Assembly: GCF_000270285.1 (NCBI RefSeq)
Contig: NC_015738.1
Span: 1,240,001-1,304,000 of the forward strand
From: Eggerthella sp. YY7918
Lineage (GTDB): Bacteria > Actinomycetota > Coriobacteriia > Coriobacteriales > Eggerthellaceae
DNA: 64,000 bases
Reading direction: 5' to 3'
Made by a program: the position numbers and the translations under genes. The notes beneath the pieces are model-generated. The model was given only the letters and a program-made list of their open reading frames with translations, was not told the origin of the DNA and searched no databases. Positions 4,568 to 62,076 of this stretch are shown here, piece after piece (positions within the stretch are counted from its first letter, which is position 1; each line of letters begins with the position of its first letter).

Positions 4568-5056
4568 TTATAATCCTAGGCTCTCTACCCAGTGGCGCAC
4601 GTCGGCTTCGGTGGCACGGCTGGAGAGACGCTTGCCGGGGAGCCAGCGGGTTTCGGGGGAGCAGCAGGCTTTGAGTACGTCTTCTGTGCGGCCCATGCCG
4701 CTGCCGCCGGAGGTGGCGAAGGGGATGATGGTTTTGCCCGCAAAGTTGTACGCCTCGAGGAAGGTGCTCACGATGGTGGGTGCAACGTACCACCAGATGG
4801 GGAAACCGACGAACACGGTGTCGTAGGCGTCCATGTTGGCCACGCGGTTGGCGATGGCGGGGCGCGACGAAGGGTCGTTCATCTCGACGCTACTGCGGCT
4901 GGTACGGTTGTTCCAGTCTAGGTCGGCGGCTGTGTAGGGCTGTGCGGGCTGAATTTCATGCAGGTCGCCACCTGTTACGCTTGCGATAGTACGGGCAAGC
5001 CGCGCTGTCTCGCCGGACGCAGAGAAATAAGCGATAAGAGTTTTGTTGTCGGACAT
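4568..5056 (-). CDS. Flavodoxin
   Basis: The protein has 162 residues. The FMN phosphate loop is at the N-terminus (I-A-Y-F-S-A-S-G-E-T-A-R-L-A), with the aromatic FMN-flanking loops F-P-I-W-W-Y and A-T-S-G-G-S-G-M-G following, as in bacterial flavodoxins of the NADPH-independent FMN type. ATG 5056 is preceded by AAAGGAACTCACTT, a good ribosome site; in-frame starts further upstream run through the remains of another gene. It sits directly upstream of the frameshifted aldo/keto reductase and probably forms one transcript with it. Role: low-potential electron carrier or quinone/flavin reductase. Confidence 0.88.
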   Translation of the reverse strand: MSDNKTLIAYFSASGETARLARTIASVTGGDLHEIQPAQPYTAADLDWNNRTSRSSVEMNDPSSRPAIANRVANMDAYDTVFVGFPIWWYVAPTIVSTFLEAYNFAGKTIIPFATSGGSGMGRTEDVLKACCSPETRWLPGKRLSSRATEADVRHWVESLGL

Positions 5057-5072
5057 AAGTGAGTTCCTTTCG

Positions 5073-5213
5073 TTAGATAGTGAGTGACGCGAGCCACGCT
5101 TCGGCGCTTGTGTCCATGGTGGGCAGATCGGCTTCGGTGACAGTGAGGCCATCGAGGACGGTCGCGTCGGGACAAAGCTCGCGTAGGTCGGCCACTGAGG
5201 TGGTGATGGAACT
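5073..5213 (-). pseudogene. C-terminal remnant of a second flavodoxin
   Basis: Read on the minus strand, this stretch encodes about 46 residues ending in a stop at 5073. They include V-A-D-L-R-E-L-C-P-D-A-T-V-L, D-G-L-T-V and a final A-E-A-W-L-A-S-L-T-I. This resembles the last strand and helix of flavodoxins, and mirrors the W-V-E-S-L-G-L end of the intact flavodoxin just downstream. The N-terminal FMN loop is missing and no start fits. It looks like a partial deletion after tandem duplication. Confidence 0.4.
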
Positions 5214-5243
5214 TGGCCTACAAAGGTGCGGCGACTCATTGTA

Positions 5244-6410
5244 TTAGTTGTCGGTTCCATACTGCTCCCTCTTGTTTGGGTGCTTCTCGACGCTGTAGTT
5301 GAAGTATGTGGCTATTTCCTGCATGCGTTCCTCCTGGGCGACGCCGAAGGGGCAGCGAGATTCGCAGTGGCCGCAGGCAAGGCAATCGGCGGCGCTTGTC
5401 GAGAGCTGCCGATAGTGTTCGACGGCCAACGCATCACCTGCGCGAGCGAGGTCGTAGTACTTATTCACTAAGCCTACGTCGATGCCCGCAGGGCAGGGAA
5501 GACAGTGGTTGCAGTACACGCACGCCCCTTGCGCTTCGGGAGGAGCAAAGGTGCCGATGGCGGAATAGTCGCACTCTTCGGGCGTTGCGTCCAAGAAGCG
5601 CAACACCTCTTCCACGTCGGCGAGCGAGCGCACGCCTGGAAGTACGGTGAGTACCGCAGGGCGATCAAGCGCGTACTGAATGAGTTGATTCTTGGTGAGC
5701 GCCTGCTTGAAGGGTGACATGTTTGCGTCAAGCAACTGCCCGCCTGCGAACGCCTTCATGACCGAAATCACAACGCCTGCGCGTTCGCACAGACGGTACA
5801 GTTCGGCGCGTTCGTCTACTGCGCCGATGCTCACATCGCTTGAGCTTGCCGCATAGTCGTAGGCAGGGTTCACGCTGAACATGAGCATATCGATCGCCCC
5901 TGTTTCAACCAGTCGACGAGCGATGCGCGGGCTATGCGTGGAGGCGCCCAGTCGTCGCACGTTGCCTGCGGCTTTAAGGCTTTGCAGGTAGTCCCATGGA
6001 CCATCGTGCAGGTAGCGGTCAAGGTCGGCGTCTTTGTCGACACAATGGACGAAGCCGAAGTCGGCGTAGTCGGTGCGCAGCGCCTTCATCTCGGCTTCGA
6101 AGGTGCGCTTCATCGTGTCCAGGTCCAGCGTCCAGCCGTATTTCCGCTCGTTACCCGTCTCGTACATCGCACCGAGGTGTATCTGCAAAAACACCTCGGA
6201 TCGCACGCTTTGAAGTGCGTGTCCGTACGCTTCGAGTGGCCGCCATACCGAAGGCACACCGTCGAAAAAGTTGACACCCGCCTCCAGCGCACGTTCGATC
6301 ATCTGACCAATCTCGACATCGGTACTCTCGTGTACCGAGCCCATTCCCAGGCCGATCACGCTTATTTTGTCGCCGCTGCGGGGCAGTGGGCGATAGGACA
6401 TCGATCCCAT
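5244..6410 (-). CDS. Aldo/keto reductase-fold protein with C-terminal ferredoxin domain
   Basis: The protein has 388 residues: an (alpha/beta)8 aldo/keto reductase part (about 1-290), then C-V-Y-C-N-H-C-L-P-C-P and C-L-A-C-G-H-C-E-S-R-C-P, typical of two [4Fe-4S] sites. The usual tetrad is altered. The Asp is present (F-F-D-G-V-P), but the D-T-A-x-x-Y tyrosine and the T-K lysine are replaced (F-L-Q-I-H-L-G at the lysine strand), while the F-V-H histidine remains. Start 6410 has GAAGGAG eight bases upstream. It is a close relative of the gene at 11959-13101. Probable anaerobic oxidoreductase; substrate unknown. Confidence 0.85.
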   Translation of the reverse strand: MGSMSYRPLPRSGDKISVIGLGMGSVHESTDVEIGQMIERALEAGVNFFDGVPSVWRPLEAYGHALQSVRSEVFLQIHLGAMYETGNERKYGWTLDLDTMKRTFEAEMKALRTDYADFGFVHCVDKDADLDRYLHDGPWDYLQSLKAAGNVRRLGASTHSPRIARRLVETGAIDMLMFSVNPAYDYAASSSDVSIGAVDERAELYRLCERAGVVISVMKAFAGGQLLDANMSPFKQALTKNQLIQYALDRPAVLTVLPGVRSLADVEEVLRFLDATPEECDYSAIGTFAPPEAQGACVYCNHCLPCPAGIDVGLVNKYYDLARAGDALAVEHYRQLSTSAADCLACGHCESRCPFGVAQEERMQEIATYFNYSVEKHPNKREQYGTDN

Positions 6411-6469
6411 GAGTATGGCTCCTTCTCGAATATGTTTGCTTTGTTATACCCTCTTGAGCTGACTCCAGG

Positions 6470-7702
6470 TCAAGCGTTTCGTGCAAGTTTTTTGGCTGAG
6501 TCGACTACCTTGTGTTGCCTCCTCGCCACGAGACGGCTGAGGATTACGGCAAACCCTGCTGCTGCGAGCGCAAGCAGCGCGCCTACCGGCCCTGTGGCCA
6601 GAAGCCCGCTTGCATTCACCGTCGCGCCGCCCACAAAGGAACCGATGGCGATGCCGGCATTAAATGACATGGGATGCAACGAGGCCGAGAAGGTGACGGC
6701 ACTTGGATAGTCACTGCGGGCGACCTCTTGGAAGAGCATCTGTACGGTGGAGTTCATCACGTACATGATCAGCCCTACTGCCATGATATCGGCAAGTCCG
6801 AGAACACCTTGGGGGATGGTTATGGCCAATAGTGCTAAAAGCGCTGCATGCAAGGCAAACGATGCGGGCAGTCCGCGGAGACCGAAACGGTTGGCCATCC
6901 ATCCCGATAGCAGGTTCGACACAACACACGCTGCGCCAAAGACAAGGAGGATGGCGCTTATTGCAGTCGGCCCAAAGCCCATGAGGCCTTCGAGAGCGGG
7001 CGTAAGATAGGTGTAGAACACATAGGTGGAGGCTGCCCCTGCCAAAATCATTGCGATATTCACGAGTACGCGCGCATCTCCTAACAATCGCAGCTGCGCG
7101 CGGATGCTCGGTTGAACTTCGGCGTGTCCGCTGCGGGGTAGGGCGACGAGCACGCTTGTGGCCGCTAATCCACACACAAGCACTGCCACGTAGGCTGCTT
7201 TCCAATCGAACGCGTCGGCAAGCATCGTGCCGATGGGTACGCCGATGACACTCGACACCGAAAACGCGGCCAGTATAAGCGCAATCACGCGGGCAACTTT
7301 GCGCATTTCAATAAGTTCGGGCACGTAGGTAAGAGCGAGCGCCAGAAGCGTACCCGAGGTGGCGGCCGCAAGCATGCGAGATATAGTCAGCACGGCATAG
7401 GTATCAACAAACAGTGTGATGATGTTGCCCAGATTGAACACTACCAACAATCCTGCCATCAGGTTAAATCGTTTGAAACGAGCTCCGGCCAGCGATACCA
7501 CTGGTGTGGCCACCGCACAGGCGAGCGCATAGTAACCCACGAGGTCTCCGATGAGCGTGAGCGGTTCGTTTAAACCTGCTGCTACATCGGGCGTAATACC
7601 AATGAGTACGAATTCGGCGAACCCGAGCGCAAACGCCAACACCACGAGCATGGCGGCTACGAGTGAGGGATGCTTACAGCGCTCGTGCGAGGAAGCGGAC
7701 AT
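6470..7702 (-). CDS. MFS transporter, drug/metabolite efflux type (DHA1)
   Basis: The protein has 410 residues with about twelve hydrophobic segments. The first pair includes F-A-E-F-V-L-I-G-I-T-P-D, the signature start of DHA1/AraJ-like exporters, and the loop 2-3 region reads L-A-G-A-R-F-K-R. ATG 7702 (MSASSHERCKHPS) follows GAAAGGTTTGTTC. The longer upstream frame runs into the divergent LysR gene and is not real. It diverges from that LysR gene, the classic arrangement for a regulated efflux pump. The leader contains a perfect 10-bp inverted repeat. Substrate not predictable. Confidence 0.88.
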   Translation of the reverse strand: MSASSHERCKHPSLVAAMLVVLAFALGFAEFVLIGITPDVAAGLNEPLTLIGDLVGYYALACAVATPVVSLAGARFKRFNLMAGLLVVFNLGNIITLFVDTYAVLTISRMLAAATSGTLLALALTYVPELIEMRKVARVIALILAAFSVSSVIGVPIGTMLADAFDWKAAYVAVLVCGLAATSVLVALPRSGHAEVQPSIRAQLRLLGDARVLVNIAMILAGAASTYVFYTYLTPALEGLMGFGPTAISAILLVFGAACVVSNLLSGWMANRFGLRGLPASFALHAALLALLAITIPQGVLGLADIMAVGLIMYVMNSTVQMLFQEVARSDYPSAVTFSASLHPMSFNAGIAIGSFVGGATVNASGLLATGPVGALLALAAAGFAVILSRLVARRQHKVVDSAKKLARNA

Positions 7703-7891
7703 GAACAAACCTTTCGACGAGGTGATTTTGCCAAGCAGGCCGGGCAGCTCCGGCCTGCTCTCTATACAGAGTAGGTCTGGCCCTGTAAAATAGCTAATGC
7801 CTATAATGAAATTGTTTATATGCTTTTTGGGTATGACAAAAGATCGAATCAAGACATTCGATACCTGAAACGTTGAGGAAGGGTGGTTACC
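7703..7891. promoter_or_regulatory. Divergent control region between the MFS and LysR genes
   Basis: AGCAGGCCGG-GCAGCT-CCGGCCTGCT (7734-7759) is a perfect inverted repeat lying in the transporter leader. TACAG (7765-7769) and CTGTA (7783-7787) form a second dyad compatible with a LysR-type site. The TATAATG-rich stretch around 7802 probably holds the LysR promoter. Confidence 0.45.
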
Positions 7892-8773
7892 ATGGAGCTG
7901 CGTACGTTGCGCTATTTCTTGGCTCTCGCACAAGAAGGCACCATCTCCAATGCGGCGAAGGCTTTGCATGTGACGCAGCCGACACTGTCCCGACAGCTTT
8001 CCGACCTGGAGAAAAGCTTCGGAAAACAGCTGTTCGAACGCGGTGCCAAGCGTATCGTACTTACCGACGAGGGTGCGCGTCTGCGTGAGTACGCCGAATC
8101 CATTGTGGCGCTGGCTGACAAGGCGGAGGCCGAACTTGCCCAACCGGAGAAGGCGGTAAGCGGAGATGTCTATGTAGGCTGCGGCGAGACCGATGCTATG
8201 CGTATTGCTCTGCGTGCAGCTAAGCGTTTGCGTGAAGTATATCCAGACATTTATCTGCATTTATCAAGCGGCTCAAGCGCCGATTTAATGGATCGCTTTG
8301 ATGACGGTTTGTTTGACTTCATTTTGGAGTGCGAGTTGGTTAGTCGCCCTGATTGCGAAGAGCTGCCTCTGCCTGCGACGGATGTGTGGGGCGCGCTCAT
8401 GCGTAAAGACCATCCTCTTGCCAAGCTTGATGCGGTGGGAATAGACGACCTGATAGGGGTGCCTCTTATTTGTGGTCGTCAAGCGCTCAAAGCAGGTAAG
8501 ATGCGCGAGTGGGCGGGTGTGTCTATCGACAAATGGGATGTTGTGGCTACCTATAATCTCATTCTCAACGGTGCCCTTATGGTGGAAGAGGGCATGGGCG
8601 TGGCTATCTGCTATGACCGACTCATTCGCCTGTCGGATGAGGGAGTGCTGTGTTTTCGGCCGCTTAGCCCGTCGCTTGTTTCTCAAATGGGAATCGTTTG
8701 GAAGAAGCACCGACGCCTTTCAAAAGCTGCTGCCACGTTTTTGGAGTACGTGAGGCGGGAGTGCGAAGCTTGA
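7892..8773 (+). CDS. LysR-family transcriptional regulator
   Basis: The protein has 293 residues. The winged helix-turn-helix is at the N-terminus (M-E-L-R-T-L-R-Y-F, N-A-A-K-A-L-H-V-T-Q-P-T-L-S-R-Q-L), followed by the periplasmic-binding-like effector domain. ATG 7892 is preferred over the in-frame GTG at 7883 because GAGGAAGGG sits eight bases before it. It is transcribed divergently from the MFS pump, which is its most likely target. Effector unknown. Confidence 0.92.
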   Translation: MELRTLRYFLALAQEGTISNAAKALHVTQPTLSRQLSDLEKSFGKQLFERGAKRIVLTDEGARLREYAESIVALADKAEAELAQPEKAVSGDVYVGCGETDAMRIALRAAKRLREVYPDIYLHLSSGSSADLMDRFDDGLFDFILECELVSRPDCEELPLPATDVWGALMRKDHPLAKLDAVGIDDLIGVPLICGRQALKAGKMREWAGVSIDKWDVVATYNLILNGALMVEEGMGVAICYDRLIRLSDEGVLCFRPLSPSLVSQMGIVWKKHRRLSKAAATFLEYVRRECEA

Positions 8774-9362: not shown

Positions 9363-10796
9363 ATGGCAGGCAGACAAGAAGACACGCTTGACCGGCGAAC
9401 ATTCGTAATGGGGTCGGCGGGGTTTGGCATGGCAGTGCTTGCGGGATCCCTTGTGGGCTGCGCTCCTTCCAGAAGCGACGAAGTCGTGAATTCGGAGTCT
9501 GAACCATCGCTTTCGCCCGATGCTCCTGCTTCTGCTGAACCGATCCCAACCGAATCGCTGCCCTACGATTCGGTATTTCCCGAACATGAACCGTTGGGCC
9601 GTGGTGTGGGCGCGTGTCCCGGGCGAGTAGCATGGGTGCGCGATGGCGCGGCGGTTGTGTGGGATGGATCTGGCTATTGGTGGCAGCATGAGCACTTTAA
9701 TGAAGAGGCTCTGCACGCTATGGTGGCAGACGGTATTGCCGCCACTGCGGGTGTTGACGACGCTCGCGCAGGCTGGCGCGTACTGTTTGAAAGCCACAAT
9801 GAACGTGCGGGTCGAACAGGCGGCTACGTTTCCGGCCAAAAGATTGCCATCAAGGCTAACATGAATGGTTCTGGTACGTTTGGTACAAGCGAAGAAAGCT
9901 CGATGAGCTATACCACGCCGGTTTTGTTGCGTGCGCTTTTGATGTCGTTGGTGGAAGATGCGCAGGTGCCCGCAAGCGCTATCACCGTATACGATGTGTG
10001 TCGAATTTTTCCTGATCATATGATTGAACTTTGCTCGGAAGATGTGCTTGCGGGTGTGCGCTTTCTTCATCGGGACGAGGGCGGTCCCCGCGATGCGGCA
10101 GGTGATGAAAATGCGCCCGTGGTATGGTCGGCCGATGTAGCGGGCGCGACTAATGTTGTGCCTGCTTGCGTTTCCGAAGCTGATTACCTTATCAATTTGG
10201 CAAGTCTTAAAGGCCACAGCTATGGTCTGACCCTTTCTGCCAAGAATCACTTCGGTTCGCTTGTGAACAGCAGTCGGCTTCGACCGCCAGAGGCAGCTGG
10301 CATTCATCGCTACGTGTCAGGCCAGACGATGGGTTCCTATACGGTGCTTGTCGACCTGCTGGCAAACCACTATCTGGGAGCAAAAACCATGCTGTGGATG
10401 CTCGACGGACTTGTCGTAGCGACATCGGAGGGTGCAACGGTTACGGCCGAGGCTGCGCGATGGGAGAGCGAACCCTTTAACGGGGGATTTACGGCAAGCT
10501 TATTCTTCTCACAAGATCCAGTTGCGCTCGATTCGGTAGGGGCGGATTTCCTTATCAACGAACCAGCTGTTACGTCGCGCAATACCGCACTCGCGGGCAA
10601 TGGGGGAGTGGAGAACTATCTGCACGAAGCAGCGCTTGCTGCGTCTGCGCCGTCGGGCACCGTATATTTGGATGGCGCGGGGACTGCGGTAGAAAGCCTC
10701 GGGGTTCACGAGCACTGGAATAATTCCACCGAGCGTCTCTACAGTCGCGATCGCGGTCAGCCCGAAGGCATCGAGCTTGTGCGCATCCTGCGGTAA
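9363..10796 (+). CDS. Tat-exported lipoprotein of the DUF362 family
   Basis: The protein has 477 residues. The N-terminus carries a twin-arginine signal (D-R-R-T-F-V-M-G-S) and a lipobox ending L-V-G-C at about residue 33, then a Ser/Pro/Glu-rich linker. The body matches DUF362: K-I-A-I-K-A-N-M-N, Y-T-T-P-V-L-L-R-A-L, and a later segment N-L-A-S-L-K-G-H-S-Y-G. Tat export suggests folding or cofactor loading in the cytoplasm, but no Cys-cluster is seen. ATG 9363 has AAAGGAG five bases upstream. The last 107 bases of the gene are duplicated about 1.1 kb downstream. Function unknown; members often occur near redox enzymes. Confidence 0.8.
   Translation: MAGRQEDTLDRRTFVMGSAGFGMAVLAGSLVGCAPSRSDEVVNSESEPSLSPDAPASAEPIPTESLPYDSVFPEHEPLGRGVGACPGRVAWVRDGAAVVWDGSGYWWQHEHFNEEALHAMVADGIAATAGVDDARAGWRVLFESHNERAGRTGGYVSGQKIAIKANMNGSGTFGTSEESSMSYTTPVLLRALLMSLVEDAQVPASAITVYDVCRIFPDHMIELCSEDVLAGVRFLHRDEGGPRDAAGDENAPVVWSADVAGATNVVPACVSEADYLINLASLKGHSYGLTLSAKNHFGSLVNSSRLRPPEAAGIHRYVSGQTMGSYTVLVDLLANHYLGAKTMLWMLDGLVVATSEGATVTAEAARWESEPFNGGFTASLFFSQDPVALDSVGADFLINEPAVTSRNTALAGNGGVENYLHEAALAASAPSGTVYLDGAGTAVESLGVHEHWNNSTERLYSRDRGQPEGIELVRILR
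10690..10796. repeat. 107-bp direct repeat, copy 1 (3' end of the DUF362 gene)
   Basis: This is identical to 11797-11903 except for three C/T transitions. It includes the final 35 codons and stop of the lipoprotein gene. Together the copies bracket the HigBA module. Confidence 0.9.
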
Positions 10797-19424: not shown

Positions 19425-19894
19425 GTTCGCAGCATAGCACCGAGCATCTAGCAGTTTCCTTGCCGTTTCCCAGCGCATTTCTAACCAAAATCCAGCACGT
19501 TTCTAGCGTATTTCCAGCGTCGTCCCCGCAGGCGATATCCTGCGTACGTCCTGCGTTTGCAGGAGGGTTTTTCGAAATTCTGCGGGCGCGCTTTCAGGGG
19601 TTTTCCTGATCTGATACACTGTGAATGCTTCTTTCGAGTCTGTAGTTGCGGGTTTAATCCTTAGTCCACGGCAGATGCGGTCGAAAGGACCCACGTAAGC
19701 CGCGCGGTTTCCGCGTGACGATCATGGCGTATCCTAGAGGTAAGTCGCACCGCCTGTAAATTGCAGCGACATACGGTCGCAACGGGCGAGAGGGTGGGGG
19801 CGCAAGCTCAACTCCGGTGCGCGAGTGTGGGGGCAAAGACTAGGTCAGTCGAAAGAAGCGCGTACGATAAAACGGCAGATGGAGGCTCTCGGTT
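19425..19894. other. 470-base gap with foldable leader of the binding-protein gene
   Basis: No gene is seen. The 3' half can fold: GCGAC-ATACG-GTCGC (about 19767-19781), then GCGCA/TGCGC further on. It is followed by GGAGG nine bases before the next ATG. No riboswitch class could be matched. The stretch with TGATACACTGTG near 19611-19622 may be a promoter. Confidence 0.3.
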
Positions 19895-59293: not shown

Positions 59294-60922
59294 ATGGAAG
59301 AAACAGTAACGGTTGAACGCATGGGCAACGGTGCGGAGGCCATCGCGCACTTACGCGATGGAAAGACCGTGTTTGTGGCCGGTGTCGCCCCAGGTGATGT
59401 GGCAAAGATTGAAATTGTTGAGGATAAGGCGACCTTTGCTCGGGCCCGCGTGGTGTCGATCGAAGAGTCGTCTGGTTTGCGCGTCCGCGAGCAACCGCGT
59501 ATGGATGCGACCATCGGAGCGCCGTGGGCGCATCTTACCTACGAGGCGCAGATCGAGGCAAAGCGCGCTAACATTGTCGATGCCCTTGTGCGTACAGCCC
59601 GCTTGGATCAAGCGCGCGTGGCCGAGCTGGTGCAAACCTGTCTTCCCAGCAAGCGTGAGTGGGGGTATCGCAACAAACTGGAAATGGCGGGGGCCTATGG
59701 CGTGAATGGCCAGTTCGACCTTGGGTTCTATCGGGAAGGCACCCACGACATGGTCATGCCGCCCACCTATCCGCTTGTGCACGACGCCATTGCGCGCGCA
59801 CCCAAGGCACTGCGCGGAGCGCTCAGGTTTGCCCAGGGGTCGCAGGATTTGGGAATCTTTCGTGTTGGCGTGCGTCACAGTCTGCGGACGCGCGAGCTCG
59901 AAGTGGCGCTGTGGACCACGCCTGCAAGCTTTCCTCGCGCCCATGTGGCCCAAACGGTGAAGAGTGCGCTTAAGGCGACCAGTATCGTGCGGGTGATTGC
60001 CGATCCTGGCAAGGCGCGCAAGGTAAAAAGCGTGGAGGTGCTCGACGGCAAAGGGCGTTGGACGGAAGTGTTGGGACATGCGCGCTATCAAGCCTCCGCA
60101 CCGTCGTTTTTTCAGGTGAATACCGCTCAAGCAGAAAACCTTGTATCGGAAGTTATCGCCCGTTTGGGCGGCAGCATGACCGATGAGGGCCCACAAGGGC
60201 TTGAGGGCCTGTTAGTGGCCGATCTGTATGCCGGGGGAGGCACGTTTTCGGTGCCGCTCGCGCAGGCTGGGGCCGAGGTGATCGCGGTTGAGGCGGCAGC
60301 CTCTTCGGTGCGCGATCTGCGACGCAACGCGGATGAAAACGACGTTGATATCGATGTCGTCGGGGGAGACGCGGCGCGCGAGCTGCCGGAGCTTGAAGAC
60401 ATCGACGCGCTTGTGGTCGATCCGCCACGTTCGGGTTTGGCTGACGGGGTGGCGGAAAGCATCGCAGCCTGCGCGCCTGCGCGCGTGATCTACGTAAGCT
60501 GCAACCCTGCCACGTTCGCCCGCGATGTGGCACGCCTTGAGTCGTGCTGCTACCGGCTGGAACGGGTCCAGCCGGTCGATATGTTTCCCCAAACGTACCA
60601 CGTGGAGACGGTTGCGGTTCTATCTCGGAAATCCGCAACGAAGACTTTCATCCCCGTGACCGTCAGCCCGAAGGACATGGGACTGGATGAGGCCAAGGCG
60701 CAACCGACGTACGAGAACATCCGAAAGTATGTGAAGGAGACGCACGGCCTGACCGTGAGCACCCTGAACATCGCGCAAATGAAGGCCGAGTGCGGACTGG
60801 AGATGGAGTGCGACCGCTCGGGCGGCAAGCAGCAGCCGAAGTGTCCGCCCGAGAAGCGCGAGGCGATTCTGGACGCGTTCCGACACTTCGGGATGATTGA
60901 GGATGATTCCTCGGAGGGATAG
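59294..60922 (+). CDS. rlmD: 23S rRNA (uracil-5-)-methyltransferase RlmD/RumA type with C-terminal extension
   Basis: The protein has 542 residues against about 430-450 for the family. An N-terminal TRAM-like part (1-60) is followed by the methyltransferase fold with D-L-Y-A-G-G-G-T-F, V-D-P-P-R-S-G-L and the catalytic cysteine in V-S-C-N-P-A-T. The normal C-terminus H-V-E-T-V-A-V-L-S-R is at about residue 446. The cysteines that bind a [4Fe-4S] cluster in RumA are absent from the corresponding stretch (P-R-M-D-A-T-I-G-A-P-W). The last 95 residues form a separate module (T-Y-E-N-I-R-K-Y-V, C-P-P-E-K-R-E-A-I-L) seen on mobile elements that insert here. Confidence 0.92.
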   Translation: MEETVTVERMGNGAEAIAHLRDGKTVFVAGVAPGDVAKIEIVEDKATFARARVVSIEESSGLRVREQPRMDATIGAPWAHLTYEAQIEAKRANIVDALVRTARLDQARVAELVQTCLPSKREWGYRNKLEMAGAYGVNGQFDLGFYREGTHDMVMPPTYPLVHDAIARAPKALRGALRFAQGSQDLGIFRVGVRHSLRTRELEVALWTTPASFPRAHVAQTVKSALKATSIVRVIADPGKARKVKSVEVLDGKGRWTEVLGHARYQASAPSFFQVNTAQAENLVSEVIARLGGSMTDEGPQGLEGLLVADLYAGGGTFSVPLAQAGAEVIAVEAAASSVRDLRRNADENDVDIDVVGGDAARELPELEDIDALVVDPPRSGLADGVAESIAACAPARVIYVSCNPATFARDVARLESCCYRLERVQPVDMFPQTYHVETVAVLSRKSATKTFIPVTVSPKDMGLDEAKAQPTYENIRKYVKETHGLTVSTLNIAQMKAECGLEMECDRSGGKQQPKCPPEKREAILDAFRHFGMIEDDSSEG

Positions 60923-61148: not shown

Positions 61149-61702
61149 CTGACACACTATCGCGAAAAAATAGTGTGTCAGAACTTTCCCCAGTTTATCG
61201 GGGAGTACGGGAAGGTGGTCGATTTCTGACACACTTGCGAAAATTTTAGTGTGTCGGTACTTTTCCCGTGTTCATCGGGGAGTACAACCATCTGACACAC
61301 TTGACACACCTTTTTTTGAACTAATGCGCGCGAGAGAAAAAATAAGTATATAGATATATATAGGGAAAAATTTCTCTGTACGCGTAGATTGGAAAAATAG
61401 TGTGTTTAGTGTGTCAAGCGTCCGAGGAAGCCGATAAATCCTACGAAAGTACCGACACACTATAAAAAATGGAAGTGTGTCAGAAAAACGGGCAATCGCT
61501 CGGGGAAGCCGATGAATGCGGGAAATCTCTGACACACTTCGAAGTGTGTCAAAGTGTGTCAGAGGTTCCCTCTCCTGCCGTGTACGGCCCTTCTTCTGCT
61601 TTCAGCTTCTTGGTGGCTCGTTCCACTTTCCAATCCGAGAGTGGAACGCAATGTTCCCCGTGTTTATCGGGGAGTAGAGGCGGATGTTCCACTTGTTCCA
61701 CT
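61149..61702. repeat. Mirror-symmetric array of octamer repeats around an AT-rich core
   Basis: Thirteen copies of GACACACT or its complement (two with one mismatch) lie at 61151-61560, mostly as inverted pairs 12-13 bases apart. The unit pair-38 bases-two direct copies one base apart occurs at 61228-61310 and, reversed, at 61399-61481. Between them is an AT-rich centre (61311-61398) with TATATAGATATATATAG. A third unit (61620-61702) has exactly the same spacing (8-12-8-38-8-1-8) but uses the octamer GTTCCACT. All 38-base spacers contain TTCATCGG or TTTATCGG with flanking matches. It looks like a replication origin or a multi-operator. Confidence 0.85.
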
Positions 61703-61812
61703 TTTCGAACGCAGTAGTGGCACATGGGCGCGCGCAATATTTTTTTCGGGCGATTTCCGCTCGTATACGAGTGGAAACAAGCCTCTGACCTGCGGAGACG
61801 GAATATCGGGTA

Positions 61813-61841: not shown

Positions 61842-61962
61842 ACCAGTTGTATAGATAAATGGCTCAGCACCCGTCCCGTCTTTGATGCGGGGTTGCTACC
61901 GGGAATAGGAGCCGAGCGCTCGGTCAAATAGGCCGTGCGTCACGGGCGAAATAACGAACACG

Positions 61963-62037
61963 AAGCTCCCGTGGAAACCGAGATAGACAAGGCATGTTCT
62001 GCCTATGTCCTTCTTTGGTTTCCACGGGAGCTTTTTT
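61963..62037 (+). terminator. Strong attenuator hairpin upstream of the HTH gene
   Basis: AAGCTCCCGTGGAAACC (61963-61979) pairs perfectly with GGTTTCCACGGGAGCTT (62017-62033) and runs into six T. The RNA from the upstream promoter to here would be about 190 bases, containing further palindromes such as CCGAGCGCTCGG. It may be a stand-alone RNA or a regulated leader. Confidence 0.85.
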
Positions 62038-62076
62038 GTTCTCGTGAAACGGATTCTGAACATGGAGGTGGCTGAT

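Follow-up and report, generated by a model that had tools for sequence, protein, structure and literature searches.

An octamer array upstream of a P4-family helicase gene

Near the right end of the 64-kb window of Eggerthella sp. YY7918 DNA analyzed here (contig NC_015738.1, positions 1,240,001 to 1,304,000) an RlmD/RumA-type methyltransferase gene with a foreign tail is followed by an array of repeated octamers, a structured leader, a helix-turn-helix (HTH_17)/excisionase-like gene and rep, which codes for a P4-family helicase (Table 1). We conclude, with a probability of about 0.88, that the segment 61151-61560 is the two-armed iteron replication origin of an integrative mobilizable element, acting with a SaPI5/P4-type helicase, Rep. 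This assignment is drawn from the sequence, namely from the array, its symmetry, its unstable core, a spacing that is kept across many octamer words, and the linkage of the word to Rep and not to the HTH gene.

Table 1. Features at the right end of the window
Feature	Position	Strand	Remarks
RlmD/RumA-type methyltransferase gene (named from its Pfam matches)	59294..60922	+	tRNA_U5-meth_tr and TRAM domains; C-terminal end seemingly exchanged for a tail encoded by the element; integration near 60595, from comparison with the unoccupied gene in genome G001
Left arm of putative origin	61151..61310	+	Inverted pairs 61151/61172 (outer, gap 13) and 61228/61248 (inner, gap 12), separated by a 48-nt spacer; after a further 38 nt, tandem 61294/61303 (gap 1; second copy 1 mismatch); word-free score 45/48
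AT-rich core, presumed unwinding element	61311..61398		Least stable 60 bp of the window from 61339
Right arm of putative origin, mirrors left	61399..61560	-	Tandem 61399/61408 (first copy 1 mismatch) and, across a 38-nt spacer, inverted pair 61454/61474; beyond a 49-nt spacer, 61531, 61543, 61553; word-free score 45/48
Probable foreign half-origin, word GTTCCACT	61620..61702	+	Word-free score 48/48; right arm absent apart from one copy with 1 mismatch at 61716
Structured transcript leader with terminator-like hairpin, between origin and HTH gene	61848..62040	+	RNA fold -88.3 kcal/mol, z -6.31
HTH_17/excisionase-family protein, 73 aa	62077..62298	+	PF12728, TIGR01764
Rep, P4-family primase C-terminal/SF3-type helicase, 602 aa	62305..64000, continuing past window end (complete in the 20-kb stretch L005, 1805-3613)	+	TIGR01613, E 1.4e-53; DUF5906, D5_N

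The array is a genuine feature, far in excess of what chance would give. Eleven of the 12 copies of GACACACT in the window fall within 61151-61560, with one stray at 1957, and the commonest 8-mer in 2000 first-order Markov simulations of the segment reached at most 5 copies. An earlier note on this DNA had described an 8-12-8-38-8-1-8 layout present forward, reversed, and a third time with a different octamer, and had likened the segment to a replication origin. With GACACACT as its word we find this layout at 61228-61310 (+) and, in mirror image, at 61399-61481 (-); the version with GTTCCACT is at 61620-61702 (+). In each GACACACT arm there is one mismatch in the innermost tandem copy (GACACACC at 61303, and AACACACT, read toward the core, at 61399). 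Five octamers beyond that plan (61151, 61172, 61531, 61543, and 61553) make up outer inverted pairs that lengthen both arms, with outer spacers, 48 and 49 nt, about one helical turn longer than the inner 38. The likeness to an origin gains support from the mirrored arms and from the 88-nt core between them, whose right end is the least stable 60-bp segment of the entire window (nearest-neighbour sum -66.4, compared with a mean of -91.4 and standard deviation of 6.2 across L005). Of 396 genomes of the class, the same 2 contain both exact inverted pairs, GTTCCACT-N12-AGTGGAAC and GACACACT-N12-AGTGTGTC, and no other genome contains either; one of the 2 is that of YY7918 itself. A search of the YY7918 genome with the 601-bp array gave matches only inside the array, type 2 repeats of the kind found in P4 not having been looked for.

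The spacing is conserved while the word changes

We scanned relatives with the spacing fixed and the word left free (maximum score 48). Besides the window, modules of the exact geometry lie beside homologous Reps in L010, L011, L012, L013, L015, L016, L017, L021, and L057 (scores 38-48), and the words found in this way beside Rep homologues include GTTCCA, GGCACAAC, TGCCCA, GTATCA, GTCTCAC, and GTACCAC. Shuffled sequence yielded 8 matches of 34 or more in five rounds with a maximum of 37, so that L015 (38) and L012 (39) are weak; L026 (34) and L036 (35) lie inside the shuffled range and were not counted. An inner scan for X-1-X-core-X'-1-X' scored at least 41, with cores of 64-105 nt, at 21 of 48 loci, some of these redundant and several copies of one another (shuffled maximum 39). 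The fully symmetric plan is present in L028, and nearly so in L062, where the left outer spacer is 65 nt instead of about 50. When the spacings were also left free, 18 of 38 loci matched (1 of 38 after shuffling), and 13 of these 18 are on plan, with a gap sum of 48-51 and a last gap of 0-2; L015, L035, L052, L061, and L064 match only at other spacings, and L013 and L016 give additional matches with an unrelated word.

In a separate viral set, reduced from 80 loci to 43 by 12-mer sharing and tested with a spacing-sum bin of 50-54 fixed beforehand, 24 of the 43 non-redundant loci contain the module in that bin and none does after shuffling; L156, a contig seen also as L050, is outside the 24. 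Occupancy of the remaining five-wide bins ranges from 0 to 10 loci, with 60-64 (10) and 40-44 (6) the fullest; after shuffling, the bins 32-36 and 60-64 each hold a single locus. The distance of the side peaks from the main peak is roughly one helical turn; they possibly reflect extra octamers 10-11 bp away, and in either case would favour octamers on one helix face. A genome and plasmid set of 28 loci, which includes the discovery loci, has 8 in the 50-54 bin and 0-3 in the other listed bins, with none of the 28 in the 50-54 bin after shuffling. Satellite phages L077, L078, and L081, and L082, a Listeria plasmid region with phage-like genes, have the module near rep with gap sums of 50-54 and 7-letter words, in regions selected by eye on the 3' side of rep; shuffling produced 3 matches in 40 rounds, 2 of them from L082, which itself gives 2 matches, as did one of its five shuffles. 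In bIL310 (L065) and L080 the module occurs only at gap sums smaller than the 50-54 range, an unrelated word in L065 excepted, and L066 and L079 have no module at threshold in the stretch 3' of rep. The proposal that geometry is retained while the recognition word changes is thus upheld by the modules beside Rep homologues, and the outcome that the earlier note named as refuting, a lack of the spacing in related elements, did not occur: many relatives, though not all, keep it.

Because L019 has a GTGACAC array 3' of Rep (9652-10143, its long centre measuring about 240 nt), the side of the array relative to rep changes within the family. L015 contains in addition a tight GCGAAAA/TTTCGCA array 3' of Rep at about 10051-10219, apart from its GGCAGCC origin. 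A second Rep is encoded in the YY7918 genome itself (L036, G000:C1:276001-296000), 39-46% identical to the first depending on the stretch compared; by eye it sits behind an apparent rlmD-like gene with a similar tail, and some 3 kb to the 3' side of this Rep, at 9484-9837 of L036, there is an array of TTCTCAAA.

Fourteen words (13 distinct), aligned by hand in the core-ward direction, give the consensus T-G-three variable positions-C-A-(C/T), with CGGTAGCC and TTACTACG among the poor fits. Positions 1 and 2 carry 1.41 and 1.63 bits of information, positions 3-5 carry 0.21-0.44, positions 6 and 7 carry 0.85 and 1.14, and position 8 carries 0.48; the differences between GACACACT and GTTCCACT are confined to the three central positions. 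The spacers of the two arms are alike in the window, L016, L028, L062, and P4, and spacers are also alike between some origins with different words. Since they resemble each other both within and between origins, the spacer likely holds a second element that is independent of the word. The claim that the spacer core is conserved separately from the octamers therefore stands for most of the origins tested and fails in L021, where the spacers of the two arms are not alike.

The octamer word is linked to Rep

A profile built from 21 Reps matches the SaPI5 primase-helicase (7ola) with an E value of 1.9e-91, and the same protein is the top Foldseek match (E 1.3e-31) of an AlphaFold model of the L010 Rep (pLDDT 84.3), which is 97% identical to the window Rep. 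The 73-residue HTH protein had been put forward as the likely reader of the octamers, and two natural swaps argue against this. The HTH proteins of L013, L016, and L017 are 100% identical, yet L013 uses GGCACAAC as its word and the other two use GTTCCATT; those of the window and L011 have no BLAST match at E 0.001, yet these loci share the same word and their Reps are 94-95% identical. The word is thus linked to Rep and not to the neighbouring HTH protein. PMC7581432 describes the Rep of Staphylococcus aureus pathogenicity islands (SaPIs) and Cch2 as binding their own iterons through a C-terminal domain, and together with the swaps this suggests that Rep is probably the word reader here, by way of its C-terminal domain.

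One of the less conserved stretches of Rep is 500-545. Over it, L012 and L016, which both have GTTCCA words, share 60% identity, and L013 and L016, with different words, share 28%, the overall identities being similar (0.60 and 0.58); L012 and L057 also share 60% there despite their differing words. A permutation test on 13 Reps (4 near-duplicates of 17 left out) gave a partial correlation with the word of 0.38 at 486-530 (p 0.008, uncorrected for 22 windows) and 0.34 at 286-330 (p 0.008). The correlation was not reproduced in 18 viral Reps (the 24 loci cut by Rep identity; r 0.10, p 0.22), in which the best window was 150-195 (r 0.33, p 0.003). At L035 7905-9705 the Rep match is split over two overlapping reading frames.

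Proposed mechanism and alternative roles of the array

Each arm of the origin would present two pairs of octamers, one inverted and, beyond a fixed spacer, one in tandem and directed at the AT-rich core. Rep would bind the octamers, probably by its C-terminal domain, such that one Rep ring assembles per arm to give a convergent pair of hexamers, which would melt the core and then unwind outward, presumably bidirectionally, after excision of the element. The circular form could thereby replicate and would not be lost ahead of mobilization.

Other functions can be envisaged for an array in this position. HTH proteins often bind inverted repeats, and both the HTH gene and its leader are downstream of the array, so that the octamers might be operators through which the HTH_17/excisionase-like protein controls transcription of the downstream operon; however, the two swaps separate the word from the HTH protein in both directions, the satellite and prophage arrays of the same plan sit 3' of rep, and the arms are mirrored around an unstable core, and we regard an operator array as very unlikely. 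We give slightly less credence still to a centromere-like partition site, even though the element encodes a ParA-like ATPase, because the module is also found beside the Rep homologues of phage satellites and P4, and convergent arms with an unstable core fit an origin better. An origin of transfer (oriT) for the relaxase appears the least probable of these: the element does encode MobC/NikA-like and MobA/VirD2-like proteins, but the mob genes are about 3.4 kb away, and the module is present in satellite phages in whose annotated stretches, with many genes labelled hypothetical, no relaxase is named.

The third array

The third repeat has the identical module and spacing described in the earlier note, with GTTCCACT as its word, but it is a half-origin lacking a right arm and not a third full unit. 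GTTCCA-type words are in use in L012 and L016, and the third array is most likely a left half-origin derived from a relative with another Rep specificity. Among the window, L010, and L011, 0 of its 32 octamer positions vary, compared with 19 of 168 neighbouring positions. This invariance, the exact module, the restriction of the word change to the central positions, and the existence of GTTCCA-type elements all speak for a decoy or incompatibility site that catches the Rep of a competing element, as opposed to a dead relic. Such a role is nonetheless rather unlikely: the numbers are small (three sequences, with the chance of 0/32 estimated by hand at about 0.04), the two Rep genes of the YY7918 genome adjoin GACACACT and TTCTCAAA arrays and not a full GTTCCA origin, and a recent relic would have the same appearance.

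The island and its neighbouring genes

Beyond the window, L005 encodes MobC/NikA-like and MobA/VirD2-like (relaxase) proteins (4651-6998), a ParA-like ATPase (7972-8547), HsdR, HsdS, and a serine recombinase with Resolvase and Recombinase domains. The element thus has both the integrase and the relaxase that define an integrative mobilizable element, and no gene for conjugation machinery was recognised among the L005 open reading frames (ORFs), some of which were searched against families. HsdR and HsdS constitute a type I restriction-modification cargo inside the island (L005 8921-15233), and the ORF between their genes is presumed to be hsdM. By comparison of gene ends the island would extend, in window numbering, from near 60595 to about 78350, a length of approximately 17.8 kb: the unoccupied G001 gene, in a reading of the DNA, ends TYHVEVVSVFERV, that of the window reads TYHVETVAVLSRK and continues, and the recombinase ORF ends THVEVVGTFERAV.

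The leader at 61848-62040 matches no Rfam family at gathering score. Relatives show at least two leader-plus-HTH types, and L011 pairs an origin of the window type with the other type. L013, L016, and L017, from records labelled Longicatena, Collinsella, and Massilioclostridium, have a near-identical leader and identical HTH gene product at about 6600-8000; a tmRNA gene is just upstream in L013 and L017, and there is no tmRNA call for L016. Elsewhere in the window there is a raiA RNA (RF03072) at 19629-19857 (144.8 bits).

Implications and comparison with known systems

The earlier note knew of no described element with this plan, but the origin is already known in kind: the P4 ori and several satellite and prophage origins appear to have nearly the same module. 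What seems new here is the word-independent spacing ruler, its occurrence on a mobilizable island, and the third, foreign half-origin (GTTCCACT); the ruler may have been stated previously in the literature on the SaPIbov1 origin, SaPI replicons, or P4 alpha. The spacing rule allows such origins to be found without knowing the word and yields predicted Rep-word pairs, and its near fit to P4 offers a reason for P4 needing crr in cis. It also bears on how excised mobilizable islands escape loss, a subject that one review places under the heading 'An Unexplored World' (PMC5704250). We tentatively suggest, at a little below even odds, that a single word-independent, mirrored blueprint, in which an inverted octamer pair is followed after about 35-40 nt by a tandem pair facing an unstable core, underlies the origins used by D5/P4-family Reps, whether in mobilizable islands, phage satellites, prophages, plasmids, or P4, with the octamers on one helix face, P4 ori and crr as two arms pulled apart, words exchangeable together with Rep, and a foreign half-origin carried as a decoy for a competitor's Rep.

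Phage P4 offers a close parallel. The annotated type 1 octamers of its ori are arranged as W-14-W'-35-W-2-W, in the same order and polarity as in the window and with the same total spacer of 51 (12+38+1), so that 14-35-2 is close, though not identical, to 12-38-1; its crr has tandem octamers with a gap of 1, then 35. The alpha protein of P4 binds the type 1 octamers. Where the window has two mirrored arms around one core, the linear P4 map separates the ori and crr repeats by about 4.7 kb, and P4 has type 2 repeats as well. A Rep_3 plasmid origin, in which a Rep_3 initiator acts on direct iterons some 20 bp long, does not match, the only Pfam matches of Rep being DUF5906 and D5_N and the iterons being inverted and tandem octamers.

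The origins of phage-inducible chromosomal islands (PICIs), which include the SaPIs and are packaged by phages, are similarly organized, with two sets of short iterons flanking an AT-rich region and adjoining the rep helicase gene (PMC6092414). The same paper reports that a PICI rep-ori segment drove plasmid maintenance, and a PICI paper describes the two-set plan as present in no other known bacterial replicon. The window Rep is homologous to the SaPI5 primase-helicase and thus of the SaPI Rep type, and the streptococcal satellites L077, L078, and L081 share the module of inverted pair, spacer, and tandem pair. The Eggerthella array differs in lying 5' of rep and the HTH gene and not directly 3' of rep, in having 13 octamers (11 exact) in two arms plus the foreign half-origin, and in belonging to an island with a relaxase and a serine recombinase. 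The staphylococcal cassette SCCmec encodes in Cch2 a D5_N/Primase_Cterm helicase that likewise binds short repeats through its C-terminal domain; these are three 5-nt iterons 3' of the gene, and the excerpts of PMC7581432 describe no two-arm plan. In the PICI-like elements (PLEs), with their RepA origins and the ICP1 nuclease Odn, satellites swap their replication module and iterons (PMC8263062), and a similar exchange could account for the change of word seen here; PLE RepA is an unrelated initiator of the RepA_N family with iterons of about 30 bp.
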